From: an uncultured Spirochaetota bacterium
GTDB lineage: Bacteria > Spirochaetota > Brachyspiria > Brachyspirales > Brachyspiraceae
Length of the DNA: 64,000 bases
Reading direction: 5' to 3'
Assembly (NCBI GenBank): GCA_944390575.1
Contig: CALXQJ010000011.1
Coordinates: forward strand, 1 to 64,000
Below the pieces are notes generated by a model. The model saw only the letters and a list, made by a program, of their open reading frames with translations. It had not been told where the DNA came from and ran no database searches. Position numbers and translations under genes: made by a program. Positions 4,439 through 56,739 of this stretch are shown here, piece by piece (within the stretch, counting starts at the first letter, position 1; the number at the start of each line of letters is the position of its first letter).

Positions 4439-6382
4439 TTAGAACCTGCTAAACGGAATATTTTCTATAGAACCTTCAGCTCCTATAGTCTCTCTAAACT
4501 CTCCATTGATTAAAAATACAACATTATTAATACCTTCGAACTGAGTAGCTGTATATACAAATTGATAAATCTGTAATATACTACCTTCATTTCCAAGAGG
4601 ATTATACTGAAAATCTTCATTAAAGTCTAAATAAACAGTGCTATCTTCAATAAAAATATCAAGCAATTTAGTATTTCTTGGTATACTACTAATAATATTA
4701 TGATTATTCTCATAAGTAGTAGCACCATCTAAAAGAGATAGTATAGCATTTTCTATTGTATTTTTTTCAAAACTTCTTTCTTTAAATACTAAAGTAATAG
4801 AACCTGTGTTTTCATTATATTCTATTAAATATATACCTGTATTTTCATATTTTGGTTTTATATTTGAGTAGTCTTTTACTATTTTCTTTTTTTGCTTTTC
4901 TGTTTTATATTTTTTTATATCATTATTTACTTTTTTTGATATAGTTTTTTTATCATATACTGCATTATTTCTCTCTATTGTAGTATTTCTTTCTCTAACT
5001 ATATTATTATTATTCTCTATCTTTGTAATATTTTCTATTTTATTATTTTTTTCTATATTACTATTTTGAACACTTATAGAATTATTATTATTTACACTTG
5101 GATTAACAAGATCATTTATAACCCTATTATAGTCACTGTTAATACTTTGTGGAGCTTTGTATATTGTATTTTCTATTATTTCTTTTTTAGTAGTTTGTGG
5201 TACTTGATAATCTCTTTTTGAGTTATCAGTTTTTTTATTTATTTCTACATTATTATTATCTTTATATGTTATAATTCTTTCTTTATTATTTACATTATTA
5301 TTATTAAATACTGAAGATGTATTTTTTTCTTTATTAGCATCTGTTTTTATATCATCATTTTTTATACTATAATCATTATTATTTACTGCATTTATATCAT
5401 ATAAAAACTTATTAAAATCATCATTTGCTGTAGTATTACTTTCTATACTGTTATTGTTTAAATTATTATTATTATTTAAATACTTTGGAGGTGATGCACT
5501 ATATGTATTTTGTTGTGCAGGTTTCATTGTTCTAATATCTCTGCTTACTTCTCTTTTTGGTTGTAGTATCTCTTTAAATATAGTATTATTTTTCTTTGCT
5601 TGAGTATCACTTTTTGCTATAACTACTTTATTGGTAGATGATACTATATCATTAGTAGATAATTCTTTATTTGTATATACATTATTATTTATATCTAATT
5701 GAGGATTAGATACCTCTTCATTATTCTTAACAACAGCAATATTATTATTTCTCTTATTATTATTTTCTAATAAAATTTGCTCTATAAGATTAACAGGTCT
5801 ATTATTTTTTGCTAATACTATATTATTAGTTTCTTCTAAAGTAATATTAGTAATAATATTTGAGTTATTAGTTAAAGAATATGAAAAATTATTATTGTTA
5901 AATAATATATCATTATTAGAATATATATTATTATTTTCATTATAATCATTAAAAAAAGGTAGTAATGCCTCTCTTGTTATTGTATTTGTTGTTGCTATAA
6001 CATCATCTGATAGCCCAACTTCTAATTTTGAGTTAGTTTCATAAGTTAATACTGATAATGTTTCATTTGTATTAGATTTTATAAAAAAGTTAAATAAAGG
6101 TACTTGATTTAGAAATTTAAGCTTATTTGAAGAGTTATCATCTACACCAGTACTTTCTAATGCTATAGCCTCTTTATGATTAATACTAAAGAAATCTTTA
6201 ATAGCAATATCTATCATAGGTGCATAATTTTTCATTATAGAAAATAAAGCTCCTACAATCAAAATAAAACCTACAGAAACTATAAGTGGTTTTTTAAGAT
6301 TTATTTCTTTACTTTCATTTGTAATTTGCTTAGTATAATAGTAGTTTGAACTTTTTGATTTATATTGTTCGTATCTTGGCAC
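4439..6382 (-). CDS. Membrane-anchored GerMN-domain protein with Asn-rich linker
   Basis: About 647 residues. There is one transmembrane segment near residues 32-50, then a roughly 440-residue linker dominated by Asn, Lys, Thr and Ser with many poly-Asn runs. The C-terminal 130 residues form a GerMN fold (hydrophobic beta strands around SITLVFKERSF, then LDFNEDFQYNPLGNEG and NNVVFLINGE). GerMN domains occur in germination protein GerM and in envelope lipoproteins; their biochemical role is uncertain. The start is ambiguous. GTG 6382 has GGGG about 9 bases upstream, and an in-frame TTG at 6397 would add five residues. The topology suggests a periplasmic domain held away from the inner membrane by a flexible spacer. 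Confidence 0.72.
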   Translation of the reverse strand: MPRYEQYKSKSSNYYYTKQITNESKEINLKKPLIVSVGFILIVGALFSIMKNYAPMIDIAIKDFFSINHKEAIALESTGVDDNSSNKLKFLNQVPLFNFFIKSNTNETLSVLTYETNSKLEVGLSDDVIATTNTITREALLPFFNDYNENNNIYSNNDILFNNNNFSYSLTNNSNIITNITLEETNNIVLAKNNRPVNLIEQILLENNNKRNNNIAVVKNNEEVSNPQLDINNNVYTNKELSTNDIVSSTNKVVIAKSDTQAKKNNTIFKEILQPKREVSRDIRTMKPAQQNTYSASPPKYLNNNNNLNNNSIESNTTANDDFNKFLYDINAVNNNDYSIKNDDIKTDANKEKNTSSVFNNNNVNNKERIITYKDNNNVEINKKTDNSKRDYQVPQTTKKEIIENTIYKAPQSINSDYNRVINDLVNPSVNNNNSISVQNSNIEKNNKIENITKIENNNNIVRERNTTIERNNAVYDKKTISKKVNNDIKKYKTEKQKKKIVKDYSNIKPKYENTGIYLIEYNENTGSITLVFKERSFEKNTIENAILSLLDGATTYENNHNIISSIPRNTKLLDIFIEDSTVYLDFNEDFQYNPLGNEGSILQIYQFVYTATQFEGINNVVFLINGEFRETIGAEGSIENIPFSRF

Positions 6383-6527
6383 TTTTATAAACCCCAAATA
6401 AAATTATCATTTTTATTGTCGAGAAATACGAAAATTATATTAATACTTTTGTTATTCTAAAATTGCTTTGAAAAAAAAATAAACATAGAATATAATAAAA
6501 GCAAAATATACTAAAATAATAATATTG

Positions 6528-6938
6528 ATGATAAAAAAATTTTTACTAATAATTACTATACTAACACTACTAATCTCTTGTGCCACATATAAAGATAATA
6601 TATCAATATCCACAAGTATATTAAATGGTAAAACATATAAATTAGTTAATATGTTTGATAAAAATGCTATAACTATTTCATTTCATAATGAAGAATTCTA
6701 TGGATATGGTGGCGTAAATACTTATTATGGTAAGTATCAAATGAGAATAGGAAATATTATTCTTTTTAATAATATAACAACAACAAGTGTAAATACTGAA
6801 ATGACAGAAGAAGCTCAGATAATCGAAAAAGAATATTTAGATGTTTTAATGTCTGTTGCAAGCATAGAGTTTACATCAGATGGAATAAAACTAATAACTT
6901 TAGATAATACTGAGCTTGTATTCAAAAAATTAAACTAA
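6528..6938 (+). CDS. META-domain (HslJ-like) lipoprotein
   Basis: A 136-residue lipoprotein. A hydrophobic leader ends in a lipobox (LLISC, Cys about residue 18). The mature part resembles META/HslJ domains: an N-terminal NGKTYKLVNM strand, a FYGYGGVNTYYGKYQ core, and MTEEAQIIEKEYLDVL before a final ELVFKKL strand. Proteins with this domain are secreted or periplasmic and linked to stress or motility, but their activity is unknown. An in-frame TTG one codon upstream is less likely than this ATG. Its 3' end overlaps the convergent 53-codon gene by 9 bases. Confidence 0.75.
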   Translation: MIKKFLLIITILTLLISCATYKDNISISTSILNGKTYKLVNMFDKNAITISFHNEEFYGYGGVNTYYGKYQMRIGNIILFNNITTTSVNTEMTEEAQIIEKEYLDVLMSVASIEFTSDGIKLITLDNTELVFKKLN

Positions 6939-23918: not shown

Positions 23919-24991
23919 CTAAGGTATTAAATTCTTTTTACGTAAAATTTTTAATATAAAAGGTGGAAATATTTTTCTTATAGAATTATGTAGATAAAAA
24001 AAGTAGTAACAAAACAAATTATAATTTCTTTTTTTTATTATTTTTAAATAAAGTGTTTTTAAATAAAAATTAGAATATTGTAACTCTTTTTTATTTAAAT
24101 TAATTTTAATAAAAAAATCTATAACTATATTATATTTGTCTTTAATAGTATCTATAGTATAAGTGTTATAAATAGTATTAAATAATATATACATATTTAA
24201 ATCGAAAATAGAGCTTACAATTTTTATATTTTTTCGATTAATATTTTTTATAGATTGGTTAAATATCTCTATAGCATTTCCTATATAATCATTATCTACT
24301 ATATGAACACTATAGTCATTACGTTGATAACAATGATATACTGCACTATTATTAAAAGATATTTTAGGATATGAGTCATACAGTTAATAAGAAAAACTAA
24401 ATCTTCACCATTTCTAATATTACTATGAACTATATTATTTTGTAATATATATTCTCTTCTAAATATTTTACTCCAAACAGATGTTGCCATAGAATATTTT
24501 GTATCTTTATAATAATTTAAAGAATCTATTAACTCTTCACATGACAAATTCAAAATACCTTCATTTTTATAATCTAACTTATTTTGCAAATTAGATTTTC
24601 TATTATAATTTTTATCATAAGTCTCTATATTCTCTGTCTTAGTAATATCAGATGAATACTTTATAGCAGTATGATAAAGATTAAAATAATAATCTATATC
24701 TATATAATCATCAGAATCTAAAAAACCTATATATTCCCCTCTAGCTATTTTTACGCCAAGATCTCTATTATACCCAATACCCATATTATGAGTATTTTCT
24801 ACTAAAATTATTCTACTATCATTTTTTTTATACTTATTAATAATTTCAACACTATTATCTATACTTTTATCATCTATACAAATTATCTCTATTTCATTTA
24901 AAGTCTGAGATAAAACACTACTCAAGCACTTATCTAAATATTGAGATGTATTATATACAAGTATAATAACACTAACTTTTATATTAGACAT
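23919..24991 (-). pseudogene. Frameshifted glycosyltransferase family 2 gene
   Basis: The N-terminal frame (24991 to about 24383) encodes a GT2 domain: KVSVIILVYNTSQYLDKCL, IICIDDKSIDNS, ENTHNMGIGYNRD and GFLDSDDYID. The frame then runs into IVFI and a stop at 24299. Moving by one base after NGEDLVFLIN restores a long frame (YDSYPKISFNNSAVYHCY and onward) that stays open to the stop at 23919. The pieces fit one deleted base, or two inserted, at about 24383-24300, giving an intact ancestor of about 357 residues. It may be a real pseudogene or a sequence error. No long homopolymer marks the site. Confidence 0.8.
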
Positions 24992-50863: not shown

Positions 50864-50901
50864 TATAATAAAACCACCAATTAAAAAATTTTTAAATAGA
50901 A

Positions 50902-50942
50902 AAGAGTTTAAAAAACTTAAATAAAAAGTTAATTAAACTCTC
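50902..50942 (-). terminator. Hairpin terminator of the arsenic operon
   Basis: Stem GAGTTTAA/TTAAACTC (50940-50933 with 50911-50904 on the minus strand) plus an inner AACTT/AAGTT pair, followed by a T-rich stretch. It separates the thioredoxin-like gene from the TPR gene. Confidence 0.6.
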
Positions 50943-50962
50943 TTTTATTATATAAACTATGA

Positions 50963-51301
50963 TTATAAATTATTTTTTAATAACTCAATAATCTCTTCCT
51001 TAGTTAAAACCTTACCATAAGAAAGAACTTTATAATCTAAAGCCAAAGCAGGAGTACTCATAACCCCATAAGCAGTAATCATCTCAGGATCTTCTATCTT
51101 ACTTACTTCTAAGTCTAAATTAGCTTCTTTTATAGCTAAAACAGTATTATCATATAATTCAGTACAATTAGCACAACCTGTACCTAAAATTTTTACTCTT
51201 CCTTCTTTTACAACTTCACCCGAAGTTTTAGGAGAAGGTGCTCAGCCACAACCAGAGTTTGAATCTTCACTAAATAAGATTTTTTTTAATTTATCAAACA
51301 T
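50963..51301 (-). CDS. Thioredoxin-like selenoprotein candidate
   Basis: A 112-residue frame if the in-frame TGA at 51244-51242 is read as selenocysteine (residue 20). The start has AAGGAG about 10 bases upstream. The N-terminus is MFDKLKKILFSEDSNSGCG-U-APSP; Cys-rich N-terminal tails are usual in ars-linked thioredoxin_3 proteins. The main domain has KILGTGCANCTELY (CxxC, about residues 39-52), DLEVSKIEDPEMI and the cis-Pro segment YGVMSTPALALDYK, then SYGKVLTKEEIIELL. It is the last gene of the arsR operon. A hairpin with a GGGU loop lies 20 bases after the TGA. If TGA were a stop, the gene would be a useless 19-residue peptide. Confidence 0.8.
51201..51238 (-). promoter_or_regulatory. Candidate SECIS element (thioredoxin-like gene)
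   Basis: Reading down the minus strand from the TGA, CCTTCT (51238-51233) pairs with AGAAGG (51206-51201). Two further pairs lie in a 5x5 internal region, and AACTTC (51227-51222) pairs with GAAGTT (51217-51212) around the loop GGGT. The loop starts 20 bases after the TGA, as expected for a bacterial SECIS. Confidence 0.7.
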
Positions 51302-51373
51302 AATAAATAGTCTCCTTAAAATATATTTATTATAAGCTAACAAACATTATATACATTTTTTAATAATTGTAAA

Positions 51374-52390
51374 TTATATAAATAAAAAATAAAATATATT
51401 AAATAAATATCCTATAATAATAATTCCAATAGTTACTATCATCACAAATATAAGTAAAAGTTTAGTTTTCATCACTTTTTTAAGCATTATAATAGAAGGA
51501 AGAGAAAGTGCTGTAACCGACATCATAAAAGATAAAACAGTACCAATACCAGCTCCCTTATAATATAAACTCTCAGCAATAGGAATAACACCAAATATAT
51601 CAGCATAAATAGGAACACCAATAATAGAAGCTATTATTACAGAATACCAATTATTTTTTCCAAGAATAGATTCTATAAAATGTGATGGTATTACATTATG
51701 AATAAAAGCTCCTATTGCAACACCTATTATAATATATAGATATATCTTTTTTATAGTATCTAAAACTTGTTTTTTAGCATATAAAAGCCTCTCTTTTGTT
51801 GTTAAGCTAACTTCTTGTATACAACAATTATTAACTTGAATATTTTGAACATAATCTTCTAAATATCTCTCTAATCTTAATTTTCCAATAATACTACCCC
51901 CAACAACAGCAAGTACAATACCAACCAAAACATAACATATAGCAATCTTAAAACCAAATATACTTGTAAGTAGTATAAGAGAAGCCAAATCTACAAGAGG
52001 AGAAGATATTAAAAAAGAAAATGTCATAGATATAGGAATACCAGCACTTGTAAAACCTAAAAATAAAGGTATTGAAGAACAAGAACAAAAAGGTGTAACT
52101 GTACCTAATAATGCTGATAATATATTTGCAGTTATACCATTAAACTTAGATAAAATATTTCTCGCTCGCTCAGGAGGAAAAAATGACTGTATGTATGATA
52201 TAGCAAAAATAAGTATACAAAGAAGTATAAATATTTTAATAATATCATATATAAAAAATTGTAAAGCCCCTCTTAATACTTCATTTTCTATAAAATTAGA
52301 TAATATATTACCTATTATATTATTAAGCCATTTCATAGATAAAACTTGCTCTTCTAAAAAGACAAAAAATGATTTCACACTTTCTCCCAT
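51374..52390 (-). CDS. ArsP/YraQ-type permease (PF03773)
   Basis: A 338-residue membrane protein with about eight to ten helices. The family cysteine motif TPFCSCSSIPLFLG is at about residues 100-113, and IGVPIYADIFGVIPIAESL at about 251-269 is a second conserved loop. Related proteins include ArsP, which exports trivalent organoarsenicals, and YraQ permeases. Its place between the rhodanese and the thioredoxin-like gene in the ars operon supports an arsenic role. A Cys pair (NNCCIQ, about residue 186) in the cytoplasmic loop may bind metalloid. AGGAG lies 11 bases upstream of the ATG. Confidence 0.85.
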   Translation of the reverse strand: MGESVKSFFVFLEEQVLSMKWLNNIIGNILSNFIENEVLRGALQFFIYDIIKIFILLCILIFAISYIQSFFPPERARNILSKFNGITANILSALLGTVTPFCSCSSIPLFLGFTSAGIPISMTFSFLISSPLVDLASLILLTSIFGFKIAICYVLVGIVLAVVGGSIIGKLRLERYLEDYVQNIQVNNCCIQEVSLTTKERLLYAKKQVLDTIKKIYLYIIIGVAIGAFIHNVIPSHFIESILGKNNWYSVIIASIIGVPIYADIFGVIPIAESLYYKGAGIGTVLSFMMSVTALSLPSIIMLKKVMKTKLLLIFVMIVTIGIIIIGYLFNIFYFLFI

Positions 52391-52425
52391 AATTAAAATA
52401 CTCCTAACACTAAAAATTATAATAA

Positions 52426-52749
52426 TTAAATATTTTCAAGTCCTTGTTTAAGTTCTCTATGACCAGCACCAGATAAACTATTTAAGTTCTTAAATCCATT
52501 TTTTTTCATAAATTCGCTAACTGCGAAAGCTCTACCTCCACTTCCTCAGTAAAGTAGATACTCTACATCTCTATCAAGTTGTAATATCTCATTAGAAATA
52601 TCAGAAAGTGAAGTATCTATTAGTATACTACCATCTATATATCCTATCTCTTCTCTCTCCTTTGCAGAGCGAGTATCTAATAATTGTATTTTTTTACTTT
52701 TAAGAAGTTTTACAGCTTCTTCTAAACCTATTTTTTTTATTTCACTCAT
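52426..52749 (-). CDS. Rhodanese-like selenoprotein candidate
   Basis: A 107-residue single-domain rhodanese if TGA at 52548-52546 is read as selenocysteine (residue 68). The fold signature is clear: IGLEEAVKLLKSKKIQLLD, TRSAKEREEIGYIDGSILID, DVEYLLY-U-GSGGRAFAVS and the closing LNSLSGAGHRELKQGL. In ordinary rhodaneses the position after LLY is the catalytic Cys that opens the CRSGxR loop, so the TGA falls exactly on it. GGAG lies about 12 bases before the ATG. Read as a stop, the protein would lose its active site and last third. It lies 7 bases after acr3. Confidence 0.85.
52513..52527 (-). promoter_or_regulatory. Candidate SECIS element (rhodanese gene)
   Basis: Minus-strand TTCGC (52527-52523), loop AGTTA, GCGAA (52517-52513), a perfect 5-bp stem with G at the second loop position. 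The loop begins 23 bases after the TGA. The flanking bases pair poorly, so the stem is shorter than in the thioredoxin-like gene. Confidence 0.5.
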
Positions 52750-52756
52750 AATGTTT

Positions 52757-53827
52757 TTAAACTCCTTTTTGAAATTTATCTTTTGTTTTATTTGAAATAT
52801 TAACTAAAAAAAGCATAACAGGAACTTCAACTAATACTCCAACTATAGTAGCAAGTGTAGCACCAGAGTTTACTCCAAACAATGATATAGCAACAGCAAC
52901 AGCAAGTTCAAAAAAATTTGAAGCCCCTATCATAGCAGCAGGTGATGCTATATTATGTGGTAGTTTTAATATATATGCTATTATGTATGATAGTGCAAAT
53001 ATAATAAATGTTTGAAGTATTAATGGTATAGATATTAATATTATATGTAGAGGGTTTGATAATATAATATTTCCTTGAAATGAAAATAATAATACTAAAG
53101 TAAGCAATAAGCCTATTATTGTTATATTATCAAATTTATGTATGAATATGTTGCTAAAATACTCTACTCCATATTTCTTACAAACTACAATTCTTGTAAC
53201 AATGCCAAGTATAAGAGGTATTAATACAAACAAAATAATAGATAAAAACAAAGTAATCCAAGGCACAAATATATCAGATATTCCAAGTAAAAATTTTACT
53301 ATAGGAACAAATAAAAATAAAATAATAAGATCATTAGTAGCTACTTGCACTACTGTATATGAAGAATTTCCTTTAGTTAAAGCACTCCACACAAATACCA
53401 TAGCAGTACAAGGCGCAGTACCAAGTAATACAGCACCTATTAAATATTCCTTTGCCAAATTAGTAGGTATAATATTTTTAAATAAAAAATAAAAGAAAAA
53501 TGAAGAGATAAAAAACATACTAAAAGGTTTTACAAGCCAATTTATAATCCAAGTAAGATAAAGACCCTTTGGATTTTTGCTTATATCTCTAATACTTTCA
53601 AAATCTACACTCATCATCATAGGATATATCATAAGCCATATAAGTATAGCAATAGGTATAGATACATTAGCATATTCTAATCTACTTAAACTTAATGGTA
53701 TTATAGGTATATACTTAGAGATTAATACTCCCACTATCATACAAGCTACAACCCAAACACTCAAATACTTTTGAAAAAAATTAATAGAAGATTTTTCAGT
53801 AGAAACATTATTATCAGTATTTTTCAT
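52757..53827 (-). CDS. acr3: ACR3-family arsenite efflux transporter
   Basis: A 356-residue transporter with about ten membrane helices. It carries the ACR3 segment LGTAPCTAMVFVWSALTKGN (about residues 134-153), including the essential Cys, and the later PAAMIGASNFFELAVAVAIS. It exports arsenite driven by the proton gradient. It lies 11 bases after arsR and 7 bases before the rhodanese gene. GGAG precedes the ATG. ArsB and the ATPase ArsA are absent from the operon. Confidence 0.93.
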   Translation of the reverse strand: MKNTDNNVSTEKSSINFFQKYLSVWVVACMIVGVLISKYIPIIPLSLSRLEYANVSIPIAILIWLMIYPMMMSVDFESIRDISKNPKGLYLTWIINWLVKPFSMFFISSFFFYFLFKNIIPTNLAKEYLIGAVLLGTAPCTAMVFVWSALTKGNSSYTVVQVATNDLIILFLFVPIVKFLLGISDIFVPWITLFLSIILFVLIPLILGIVTRIVVCKKYGVEYFSNIFIHKFDNITIIGLLLTLVLLFSFQGNIILSNPLHIILISIPLILQTFIIFALSYIIAYILKLPHNIASPAAMIGASNFFELAVAVAISLFGVNSGATLATIVGVLVEVPVMLFLVNISNKTKDKFQKGV

Positions 53828-53838
53828 ATTAAAACTCC

Positions 53839-54150
53839 TTAATTACATTTTATATTATTACTTGTATAATTAATGTCTTTTGACAAATAGTAATTCAAAA
53901 TATCCTTTATATTCTCAATACTATCACAATTAAAGCTATAATAAGTCCATTTACCTTCTTTACGAGAATTTAATATATTAGCATCACAAAGTATTTTCAT
54001 ATGATGAGATAATGTAGACTGAACTATATTAAGCCTATCTAAAATCTCACAAGCACATATTTCTCCCCCCTTTATAATCTCTAATATTTGAAGTCTATTC
54101 TCATCAGCAAGTGCTTTAAAAATAAGAGTATTATCTTTATAATCTATCAT
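53839..54150 (-). CDS. arsR: ArsR-family arsenic-responsive repressor
   Basis: A 103-residue winged-helix repressor. The arsenite-sensing Cys pair is in GGEICACEILDRL (CxC, about residues 30-34), like ELCVCDL of classical ArsR. The DNA-recognition helix is VQSTLSHHMKIL, followed by the wing (NSRKEGKWTYYSFN). The C-terminal tail has an extra Cys. I chose ATG 54150 because GAGGTG lies 6 bases upstream; an earlier in-frame start at 54213 would fall within the promoter. Confidence 0.92.
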   Translation of the reverse strand: MIDYKDNTLIFKALADENRLQILEIIKGGEICACEILDRLNIVQSTLSHHMKILCDANILNSRKEGKWTYYSFNCDSIENIKDILNYYLSKDINYTSNNIKCN

Positions 54151-54175
54151 AAAAAACACCTCATATCTATAAACA

Positions 54176-54213
54176 TCGATATATAATATATAATACATAT
54201 CGAATATTGTCAA
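54176..54213 (-). promoter_or_regulatory. ars operon promoter and likely ArsR operator
   Basis: Minus strand TTGACA (54213-54208), 17 bases, TATATT (54190-54185). A perfect 7-bp inverted repeat, TCGATAT (54176-54182) and ATATCGA (54197-54203), lies across the -10 region, a suitable place for ArsR to block initiation. Confidence 0.65.
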
Positions 54214-54327: not shown

Positions 54328-55770
54328 ATGAAAGAAAAGTTAGAAGCAATGCTATATAAGGTAGTAGAACTATCAAATAATAAATATATAGCAGCAATTA
54401 AAGAAGGAGTTATATCTGTAATAGGTATAACAATAATAGGAAGTTTTTTTCTATTAATAGCATATCCCCCAGTACCACAACATTGGTTTGAAACTATTGG
54501 AATATTTAAATGGATTGCACAAAATAGGGAAATAATACTATTACCATTTCAAGCTACAATGAGTATAATCACAATATTTGTTATTATAGCAACAGCTCAT
54601 CACTTAGCACGCTCATCAGAATTACCAGTAATACCAACTATTATAATTTCTTTAATAGCATTCTTTATGACATTAGATTGGACAAGAGTTATAGAAGCTA
54701 TATCTTTCAAAGAGATAATAATTACAGCAGAAAATCAAAATATGATGATGCAATTATTACAGTTGGATACTCTTCCTAATATAGGAGATAAGTTTAATAT
54801 AGCATCTGGTAGTATAAAGTCATTAGGATTAGTAATGCCACTTAGTAATATGGGTTCTAAGGGTATGTTTGTTGGATTTTTATGTGTTATAATTGTTTGT
54901 TCTATTTTCAAGTTTTTTAAGACAAGAAATCTTACTATAAAAATGCCTGATGGTGTACCTGATGGTGTTATACGTTCATTTGAAGCATTGATACCATTAT
55001 TAGTGATAGTATTATTATTCTTGTCATTACATTTAATACCAGCGTTCTTACCAACAGTATTCCCAGATGGCATTATAGATTTACATAAATTATTACAAAA
55101 ATTATTCTTCTGGCTACCATTAATAGTAAATAGCCTACCAGGTGCATTAATAATGGTATTTTTTATTTGTCTATTATGGTGTATTGGTATTCATGGAAGT
55201 TCCGTAGTAGAAGCATTTACTTTTCCTGTATTATTACAACTATTTGAAGCTAATGCACAGGCATTTATAAATGGAGAGCATATACCTTATATATTAACAA
55301 ATCAGTTTTACTATTCTTTTGTTTGGATTGGTGGAGGCGGTGGTACTTTAGGACTTGTTATATTAATGGCTTTTATGTCAAAGTCAAAATATATGAAAGT
55401 ATTAGGAAAATCATCATTAGCACCTTGCTTATTTAATATTAATGAACCTATAGTATTTGGTACACCTATTGTATTAAATCCATATTTAATGCTTCCATAT
55501 ATTGTAGGACCTATGATTTGTGTTATTATTTCATATTTAGCTACAAAACTTGGATTTATAAGTCAAACTGTAGCTGCTGTGCCTTGGACATTCCCTGCAC
55601 CATTATATGCTTATTTTGCTACTGGTGGAGATTGGAAAGCTATAATACTTGTTGTAGTGAACTTATCAATTCTTACTATAATGTATTTACCTTTCTTTAT
55701 TAAGTATGATAAAAAACTTCTGTTAGAAGAGATGAATGAAAGTAAGGATAGTAGTGAAAATAAAGACTAA
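54328..55770 (+). CDS. PTS lactose/cellobiose-type EIIC permease
   Basis: A 480-residue EIIC with about ten membrane helices. Key segments are KEGVISVIGITIIGSFFLLI near the N-terminus, IGIHGSSVVEAF (about residues 287-298), the Gly-rich FVWIGGGGGTLG, and LFNINEPIVFGTPIV (about 369-383), the substrate loop with the conserved Glu. It imports a beta-glucoside or chitobiose-like disaccharide with phosphorylation. EIIA and EIIB are not adjacent. The acidic Ser-rich tail is unusual. The next gene starts 18 bases on. Confidence 0.88.
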   Translation: MKEKLEAMLYKVVELSNNKYIAAIKEGVISVIGITIIGSFFLLIAYPPVPQHWFETIGIFKWIAQNREIILLPFQATMSIITIFVIIATAHHLARSSELPVIPTIIISLIAFFMTLDWTRVIEAISFKEIIITAENQNMMMQLLQLDTLPNIGDKFNIASGSIKSLGLVMPLSNMGSKGMFVGFLCVIIVCSIFKFFKTRNLTIKMPDGVPDGVIRSFEALIPLLVIVLLFLSLHLIPAFLPTVFPDGIIDLHKLLQKLFFWLPLIVNSLPGALIMVFFICLLWCIGIHGSSVVEAFTFPVLLQLFEANAQAFINGEHIPYILTNQFYYSFVWIGGGGGTLGLVILMAFMSKSKYMKVLGKSSLAPCLFNINEPIVFGTPIVLNPYLMLPYIVGPMICVIISYLATKLGFISQTVAAVPWTFPAPLYAYFATGGDWKAIILVVVNLSILTIMYLPFFIKYDKKLLLEEMNESKDSSENKD

Positions 55771-55788
55771 TATAGGAGTATATAAAAA

Positions 55789-56739
55789 ATGAAAAAAAGA
55801 ATATTTGAACTTACATTAGAAGATGTATTAAATATGAAGGCATCTAATTTAAAAGAGATTGTTAAGAAGTCTGAAGGTAGAAGTGTTATGGCTGAGGTTT
55901 GTTGCGAACATCAACCTCTTATAGATGCTGTATCTAATGCTGAGGCTGCTGCTACTTTTGGGGCTGATTTTGTAACTTTAAATTTATTTGATATGAATAG
56001 ACCTTTTGTATGGGGATTTAGAAGTGAGAATCATTCTACTGAAGAGAAAAGCTGGATTGAAAATAGGTTTAGAGGTTTAATGAATGATATTGATAATAAA
56101 GAAAATGAAAATATTATTAGAGATTTAAAAAAAGTTACTGGTAGACTTATAGGAGTAAATTTAGAACCTGTGCCTAGTGGTAGTAATTATAACACAGGTT
56201 TTTGTGCTAATAAAGAAAATTATGAAAAGCTATTAAAATATGGGTTTGATTATGTTGTATTAACTGGAAACCCTAAAACTGGTGTTACTATAGAAAGTAT
56301 TGCTAATGCTACTAAAGAAGTAAAAAGCATTTGTAAAGATGATGTTCTTATTATTTCTGGAAAGATGCATGGTGCTGGTGGTGACAATGTATATTCTCTT
56401 GATGAGCTTGATAGTATGGTAAAAGCTGGTGCTGATGTTGTTATGGTGGGTGCTCCTTCTACTTTACCTGGATATACTGTTGATTTTGTGTATGAACAGA
56501 TTAAGAGAATACATAGTTTTGGTGCATTAGCTAAAACTGCTATTGGAACTTCTCAAGAGGGTGCTGATACTAATACTATTAGAGATATAGCATTATGGTC
56601 TAAAATGGCTGGAGCAGATATTGTTCATATTGGAGACGCTGCTTATAGTGGAATGTCTCTACCTGAAAATATTATGGCTATGAGTATTGCTATTAGAGGA
56701 ATAAGACATACTTATAGAAGAATGTGCTATAGAAAGTAA
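55789..56739 (+). CDS. TIM-barrel-like protein linked to PTS (DUF7916-like)
   Basis: A 316-residue protein with repeated beta-alpha units: GRSVMAEVCCEHQPLIDAVS, AATFGADFVTLNLFDMNRP, TGRLIGVNLEPVP, LKYGFDYVVLTGNP, VLIISGKMHGAGGDN and VKAGADVVMVGAPSTLPGY. The C-terminus holds TAIGTSQEGADTNTIRDIAL and MAGADIVHIGDA. This looks like a phosphosugar-binding barrel near PTS transporters; I believe the family is DUF7916, with no settled reaction. It is co-transcribed with the EIIC gene, so it probably acts on the imported phosphosugar. Confidence 0.7.
   Translation: MKKRIFELTLEDVLNMKASNLKEIVKKSEGRSVMAEVCCEHQPLIDAVSNAEAAATFGADFVTLNLFDMNRPFVWGFRSENHSTEEKSWIENRFRGLMNDIDNKENENIIRDLKKVTGRLIGVNLEPVPSGSNYNTGFCANKENYEKLLKYGFDYVVLTGNPKTGVTIESIANATKEVKSICKDDVLIISGKMHGAGGDNVYSLDELDSMVKAGADVVMVGAPSTLPGYTVDFVYEQIKRIHSFGALAKTAIGTSQEGADTNTIRDIALWSKMAGADIVHIGDAAYSGMSLPENIMAMSIAIRGIRHTYRRMCYRK

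Follow-up and report, generated by a model that had tools for sequence, protein, structure and literature searches.

Selenocysteine (Sec) forms of Thioredoxin_3 proteins, named Redox-active disulfide protein 2 and divided into Sec.1 and Sec.2, are present as a gene cluster in all Brachyspira genomes that have been analysed for them (Santesmasses 2017, PMC5330540). A gene of this family is also found in an arsenic resistance (ars) operon from an uncultured bacterium of the Brachyspiraceae, which is the subject of this text and lies in a stretch of 64,000 nucleotides, here called the window (contig CALXQJ010000011.1 of assembly GCA_944390575.1, positions 1 to 64,000). The operon encodes in turn an ArsR/SmtB repressor, the arsenite efflux transporter Acr3, a rhodanese with an in-frame UGA, an ArsP-like permease and the Thioredoxin_3 protein, which likewise has an in-frame UGA. 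It is proposed, with a probability of about 0.5, that this is the arsenic-efflux operon common to Brachyspira, which in one lineage has gained a Sec-rhodanese, and that its selenoproteins would handle the sulfur or redox state of arsenicals before they are exported. Like Sec.1 and Sec.2, the thioredoxin of the window is a PF13192 protein that has its predicted Sec in a short N-terminal extension and belongs to a gene cluster of the genus. Unlike Sec.1 it has a CxxC motif in its domain, and its genome yields one thioredoxin match compared with the three given in PMC5330540. The section of that paper on Sec.1 and Sec.2 makes no mention of an arsR-acr3-permease context, of ars genes or of a rhodanese.

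Several other described systems share parts of this arrangement. ArsP of Campylobacter jejuni exports trivalent organoarsenicals and not arsenite, and as in the window it is encoded in one operon with Acr3; unlike the window, what PMC6205960 says of that operon includes no mention of a Sec protein, a thioredoxin or a rhodanese. The SAO and Tso systems are selenoprotein operons (Haft 2023, 2025, as cited in the review PMC13188914), of which the Sao proteins have been tied to metal(loid) resistance. The same 2026 review describes TsoB as a rhodanese fusion and records several forms of Sec rhodanese. As summarised there, SAO and Tso resemble the window operon in having several selenoproteins per operon, but these are of different families. 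Membership of either system was rejected, with the window permease reaching 100.8 of 325 bits with the SaoE model and 99.7 of 300 bits with that of the SO_0444 subfamily, the TsoR model reaching 47.1 of 115 bits and no TsoB match at an E-value of 0.01. A further likeness is to the ArsEFG system, reportedly the work of Chen, Zhang and Rosen in 2019, as NCBIfam gives TIGR00412, the family of the window thioredoxin, the label 'MTH895/ArsE family'. ArsG is an efflux transporter (PMC9144182). The window differs from ArsEFG in that its protein has a predicted Sec and that no ArsF was identified, although no ArsF-like gene was sought. The first-pass annotation of the window knew of no such operon. 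This is true only in part, as the Brachyspira Sec thioredoxins were published in 2017. Their arsenic context is absent from the section of PMC5330540 that describes them; no selenoprotein-arsenic operon with a rhodanese was recognised in the literature, which does not establish its absence from print. In the window a selenoprotein family already described stands in an arsenic context on which no comment has been seen, and it is joined there by a second selenoprotein that was recruited in one lineage.

The five genes are closely spaced on the minus strand between positions 50963 and 54150, with intergenic gaps of 11, 7, 35 and 72 bp in operon order from arsR (computed from the coordinates), and every product has at least one match in Pfam or NCBIfam that exceeds the curated cut-off (Table 1). 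The gene order, the families and the positions of the UGA codons confirm what the first-pass annotation had described, a single minus-strand ars operon with two UGA-bearing redox genes. Both the regulator and the dedicated arsenite pump of an ars resistance operon are present, as the matches to NF033788 and TIGR00832 are above cut-off. The helix-turn-helix region of ArsR holds a Cys-Ala-Cys pair, and such pairs bind trivalent arsenic. The start codon of arsR is ATG, and an alternative TTG at 54213 falls within the promoter. This promoter and its ArsR-like operator had been part of the same first description and were found again, with the blocks TTGA[CT]A, TCGATAT and AT[CT]GAT conserved in all 21 upstream regions that were aligned (the window and 20 of 23 loci of the genus; L084, L116 and L119 were left out). 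The promoter call rests on this conservation because a promoter scan yields 40 sites against 28.9 expected. The terminator that had been claimed fared less well, as a strict terminator scan found none at the operon, although an AT-rich hairpin of unusual stability lies at its end. A sub-threshold Rfam match to the ylbH leader, at 26 of 50 bits, was taken as chance. A second promoter-like match, TTTACA-16-TATAAT (11/12), is located at 51346-51373 of the window directly upstream of the Sec-thioredoxin gene, which might be transcribed separately from this site.

Both TGAs are predicted to be Sec codons and do not look like ordinary stops. The genome itself encodes tRNA-Sec (60.5 bits; Rfam gathering threshold 47), SelB (277.9 bits; cut-off 242.25) and SelD (354.6 bits; cut-off 125), and the open reading frame (ORF) adjoining selB is probably selA, judged by eye. 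The UGA of the rhodanese aligns with the catalytic Cys in 24 of 24 relatives from the genus and recurs as UGA in a paralogue of the same genome. The alignment has 26 rows, two of them these UGA copies and the other 24 the best matches in other genomes of the genus, G006 excepted. The thioredoxin has UGA-bearing relatives across the genus; it begins with a Cys-Gly-Sec arm that is followed by a domain with a CANC motif, and the position in the arm is Cys in some copies of the genus and UGA in others. Brachyspira thioredoxins that have CxxC carry CGU (CxU) in the arm and the one without CxxC carries UGC (UxC); the motifs that the review PMC13188914 gives for Sec.1 and Sec.2 are reversed relative to what the text of PMC5330540 implies.

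Each UGA is followed by a candidate bacterial Sec insertion sequence (bSECIS). Among 24 UGA-bearing thioredoxin rows, the window and 23 copies from the genus, the core UUC-loop-GAA is kept in all and CUUC-loop-GAAG in 22. Counted from the U of UGA, the stem begins at 17-20 nt, and the codons fall on it in two registers among the rows, which points to selection on the RNA. Counting against this element, 6 of the 24 rows have another helix as their longest. The RNAalifold consensus of these rows is weak at -1.39 kcal/mol, with the window placed out of register by the alignment. The run of 24 identical nucleotides between the two UGA-rhodaneses that holds the other candidate has a P of 0.027 by codon shuffles; the bSECIS of the rhodanese is only tentative because the minimum-energy fold of the window sequence is another hairpin (z -1.25).

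Table 1 Coordinates of the operon genes and associated elements in the window
Feature	Position	Strand	Description and support
arsR, ArsR/SmtB repressor, 103 aa	53839..54150	-	PF01022 3.2e-12; NF033788 89.6 bits, cut-off 55
acr3, arsenite efflux transporter, 356 aa	52757..53827	-	TIGR00832 367.6 bits, cut-off 282.8
Predicted Sec-rhodanese, 107 aa, loop UGSGGR, UGA codon 68 at 52546-52548	52426..52749	-	PF00581 1.2e-12, 48.6 bits, cut-off 22.2, match spans the UGA
arsP-like permease, 338 aa	51374..52390	-	PF03773 5.8e-64, 216.5 bits, cut-off 32.3
Predicted Sec-thioredoxin (Thioredoxin_3, MTH895/ArsE family), 112 aa, UGA codon 20 at 51242-51244	50963..51301	-	PF13192 9.5e-22, 77.3 bits, cut-off 24.8; TIGR00412 88.5 bits, cut-off 62
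Promoter and ArsR-type operator, TTGACA-17-TATATT, inverted repeat TCGATAT...ATATCGA flanking the -10	54151..54213 (promoter 54213-54185)	-	11/12 promoter match
AT-rich terminator-like hairpin	50890..50948	-	-16 kcal/mol, z -4.47, 0/200 shuffles as good
Candidate bSECIS of the thioredoxin, inner stem AACUUC-GGGU-GAAGUU, outer stem CCUUCU/AGAAGG	51201..51238	-	-13.5 kcal/mol, z -2.1 to -2.25
Candidate bSECIS of the rhodanese, UUCGC-AGUUA-GCGAA, start 21 nt downstream of the U in UGA	52513..52527	-	Within a 24-nt run identical in the paralogue

The pairing of permease and thioredoxin is a feature of the whole genus. A thioredoxin match was obtained in 23 of 25 other genus genomes (G006 and G021 had none), and the surroundings were examined in all 23. 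The permease or its remnant accompanies the thioredoxins in every one of these loci, which follow the order arsR-(acr3)-permease-thioredoxins, and the window permease is 72-75% identical to six of its Brachyspira relatives. G002, whose locus meets a contig edge, was not included when acr3 and intact frames were counted, and of the 22 remaining loci 17 have an intact permease frame. Acr3 is present in 12 of the 22 loci that reach its place, intact in 10 and broken in 2, and is absent from the remaining 10. Although not intact everywhere, the permease is a more constant companion of the thioredoxins than Acr3 is. A TIM-barrel gene stands between the permease and the UGA-bearing thioredoxins in G007, G014 and G018, joined in G007 and G018 by a phosphotransferase system (PTS) permease gene, and G001 has a gap of similar size between permease and thioredoxins. 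Relatives of these genes flank arsR on the opposite side in the window, where the PTS permease and TIM-barrel genes at 54328-56739 are divergent from arsR. The genes that flank the operon are common to seven of the nine relatives compared (nine of the 23 genus loci), and the operon was therefore probably inherited in place; horizontal transfer of the operon as a whole is accordingly unsupported.

Outside the genus, 29 other Spirochaetota loci were chosen from the high-ranking thioredoxin matches, out of 134 such genomes matched. Of the 29, 28 have a PF03773-like permease on the same strand and no more than 3 kb away, many of these permeases being only 21-35% identical, and the same loci include ArsR in 20 cases and Acr3 in 13. 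Among the non-genus thioredoxin matches listed only G050 was flagged with a TGA, and the alignment shows none inside the domain. A search of named genomes with the permease alignment returned 13 loci, all of them from Brachyspira. Plasmid records gave a permease match in 970 cases and a thioredoxin match in 33, of which ten were examined, two having no annotated features in the stretch concerned. Like the window, plasmid records of Monoglobus, Ilyobacter, Peptoclostridium and Neotabrizicola keep the three genes in the order arsR-permease-thioredoxin, with permeases that are 46-61% identical; unlike it, their thioredoxins have no UGA (that of Monoglobus has a Cys-rich arm) and no adjoining rhodanese is annotated. 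Permease and thioredoxin stand beside Acr3 and ArsR on a Cetobacterium plasmid and beside ArsC, Acr3 and ArsH on an Acinetobacter plasmid, and the pair is found on plasmids near ArsC, Acr3, ArsR, ArsH or ArsJ genes.

Two plasmids of Alphaproteobacteria have permease, thioredoxin and rhodanese in a row in an ars context. On the NT-25 plasmid an arsenical-resistance gene and two genes for arsenate reductase are close by, and on the plasmid of Cereibacter azotoformans the three genes are accompanied by ArsR. In contrast to the window, each rhodanese here has the Cys form and a Cys-rich tail and comes after the thioredoxin, and there is no Acr3 within the unit. The gene order that the first-pass annotation had thought worth seeking in other genomes, with Cys or Sec, has therefore been met with again in its Cys version, but as a partial set and in a different order. 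The Cys-rich C-terminal tails of these plasmid rhodaneses, which come after permease and thioredoxin (L131, 5286-5780; L132, 4213-4665), look as if they could bind metal(loid)s.

The rhodanese of the window belongs to the PF00581 proteins with a Cys(Sec)-X4-Arg loop, as the Sec and Arg of UGSGGR enclose four residues, which makes it a loop of the six-residue type. Loops of six residues (Cys-X4-Arg) are associated with sulfur or selenium substrates and those of seven (Cys-X5-Arg) with arsenate or phosphate (PMC6272796). Its nearest relative, at 58% identity, is the UGA-rhodanese paralogue on contig C17 of the same genome, which has the loop UVSGKR (L044, 9551-9877; C17 match 24565-24876). Their sister relationship has moderate support (85/75), and both fall within a larger group, itself supported (95/92), that also takes in Cys rhodaneses from four genomes of the genus. 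When the phylum was searched with the rhodanese (392 genomes), only two genomes outside the genus gave a match at an E-value of 1e-12, both without UGA. Both redox genes had at first been taken to be linked to ars genes; this linkage was upheld for the thioredoxin, which accompanies the permease in 23 of 23 genus loci and lies near it in 28 of the 29 other Spirochaetota loci, and was not upheld for the rhodanese, which occurs in 0 of 23 and 0 of 29 respectively, save for one weak match on the opposite strand about 3.2 kb away in L156. The simplest account would be that the rhodanese is a lineage-specific copy that was placed between acr3 and the permease. So far, a rhodanese in the ars cluster is confined to this genome, whereas the thioredoxin is long-standing there across the genus.

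In the proposed arsenic-efflux operon, trivalent arsenic would release ArsR from the operator, Acr3 would export arsenite and the permease would export a thiol-reactive arsenical, probably a trivalent organoarsenical. The thioredoxin, by means of its CANC motif and Cys-Gly-Sec arm, may keep the arsenical or protein partners in a reduced state, or may pass the arsenical on to the permease. The rhodanese could strip or carry sulfane sulfur from sulfur-bound arsenic or from persulfides in the sulfidic gut and would in turn be reset by the thioredoxin. A role in the sulfur or redox handling of trivalent or sulfur-bound arsenicals is suggested because the rhodanese loop is of the six-residue type, two ArsC families had no match in the genome and the permease is linked to the thioredoxin. 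The literature gave no connection of Brachyspira with arsenical feed drugs, and none is used here as support.

A number of observations weigh against this proposal. There is no ars gene in the 19.9 kb around the Sec-rhodanese on C17, and the rhodanese family is therefore not dedicated to arsenic. The rhodanese operon of Thioalkalivibrio thiocyanoxidans neither adjoins ars genes nor is induced by arsenite (PMC6620896). The substrate of the permease is assigned by family only; its scores do not reach the cut-offs of the SaoE and SO_0444 subfamilies. The permease looks broken in 5 of 22 genus loci, by a stop or frameshift in G005, G007, G008 and G013 and as a remnant in G011, where assembly errors are possible, and this lowers confidence in the proposal. 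UGA-bearing thioredoxins persist beside these broken permeases, and in G011 two are kept although arsR is broken too; they may therefore have a job beyond the permease. The broken or remnant permease loci are L116 (G011; 5722-6892), L083, L085, L114 and L117.

It is conceivable, if doubtful, that the rhodanese is a passenger, a duplicated Sec-rhodanese of general sulfur trafficking that has no arsenic role and leaves arsR, acr3, permease and thioredoxin as the only functional members. This would agree with its absence from the other loci of genus and phylum and with an unlinked UGA copy as its nearest relative, but its gaps of 7 bp to acr3 and 35 bp to arsP fit co-transcription, and a rhodanese also follows permease and thioredoxin on the two Alphaproteobacterial plasmids. 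Furthermore, Thioalkalivibrio jannaschii has a rhodanese whose operon adjoins ars genes and whose level goes up with arsenite, in contrast to that of its relative T. thiocyanoxidans (PMC6620896). Unlikely, too, is a division of labour in which Acr3 alone handles arsenic while permease and thioredoxin serve another thiophilic toxicant, such as a metal, a selenium species or reactive sulfur, or in which the Sec-thioredoxins act apart from the permease. Among the subfamilies of PF03773 are indeed SaoE and SO_0444 (Cu/Zn), to each of which the window permease has a weak match, and the thioredoxins are kept where Acr3 is absent (10 of 22 loci) or the permease looks broken, yet ArsR and ars genes surround the permease-thioredoxin pair on plasmids as well.

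The Sec-rhodanese has also been considered as the missing arsenate reductase, in the manner of yeast Acr2p, which is predicted to share the rhodanese/Cdc25 fold (PMC6272796). In agreement with the first-pass annotation there is no ArsC in the operon, and two ArsC families, PF03960 and PF01451, have no match in the genome (other arsenate reductase families were not searched). However, the four residues between Sec and Arg in UGSGGR are not the Cys-X5-Arg of the seven-residue arsenate type (PMC6272796), which makes reduction of arsenate by the rhodanese, as once suggested for this locus, very improbable, and arsenate reduction is not likely to be the purpose of the operon. Genuine termination at the two UGAs, which would leave both genes broken, would accord with translation table 11, under which the rhodanese is a 67-aa fragment and the thioredoxin has no ORF of 60 aa, but is scarcely tenable in the face of UGA-thioredoxins throughout the genus, a UGA that is common to two rhodanese copies and aligns with Cys, SECIS-like hairpins downstream, the retention of SelB, SelD and tRNA-Sec in the genome, and a first in-frame ATG, GTG or TTG after the thioredoxin TGA that is not reached until codon 74, inside the domain.

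Thiosulfate is the classic sulfur donor of rhodaneses. The structural similarity between monothioarsenate and thiosulfate, which has been cited for Sox enzymes (PMC6620896), raises by analogy the highly speculative idea that the Sec-rhodanese could be a thioarsenical desulfurase. The sulfur of monothioarsenate would then be transferred to Sec, freeing arsenite for Acr3, and methylated thioarsenicals would be converted to trivalent species for ArsP, with the Sec-thioredoxin reducing the Se-S adduct of the rhodanese. No thioarsenical-desulfurating enzyme of this kind was recognised in the literature. If true, this would amount to an ArsC-free, selenium-dependent detoxification of sulfur-bound arsenic in the sulfidic gut.

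The significance of the arsenic-efflux operon as proposed here is twofold. A family of Brachyspira selenoproteins that had been published without an explanation gains a concrete setting, an ars operon with a conserved ArsR-type promoter and a neighbouring PF03773 permease, and with it a function that can be tested, and one lineage has apparently added a second selenoprotein, of the sulfurtransferase type, beside its arsenic pumps. Selenols bind arsenic tightly. Selenium may therefore be advantageous in the handling of arsenic, or else the enzymes that carry it may need to be shielded from arsenic.

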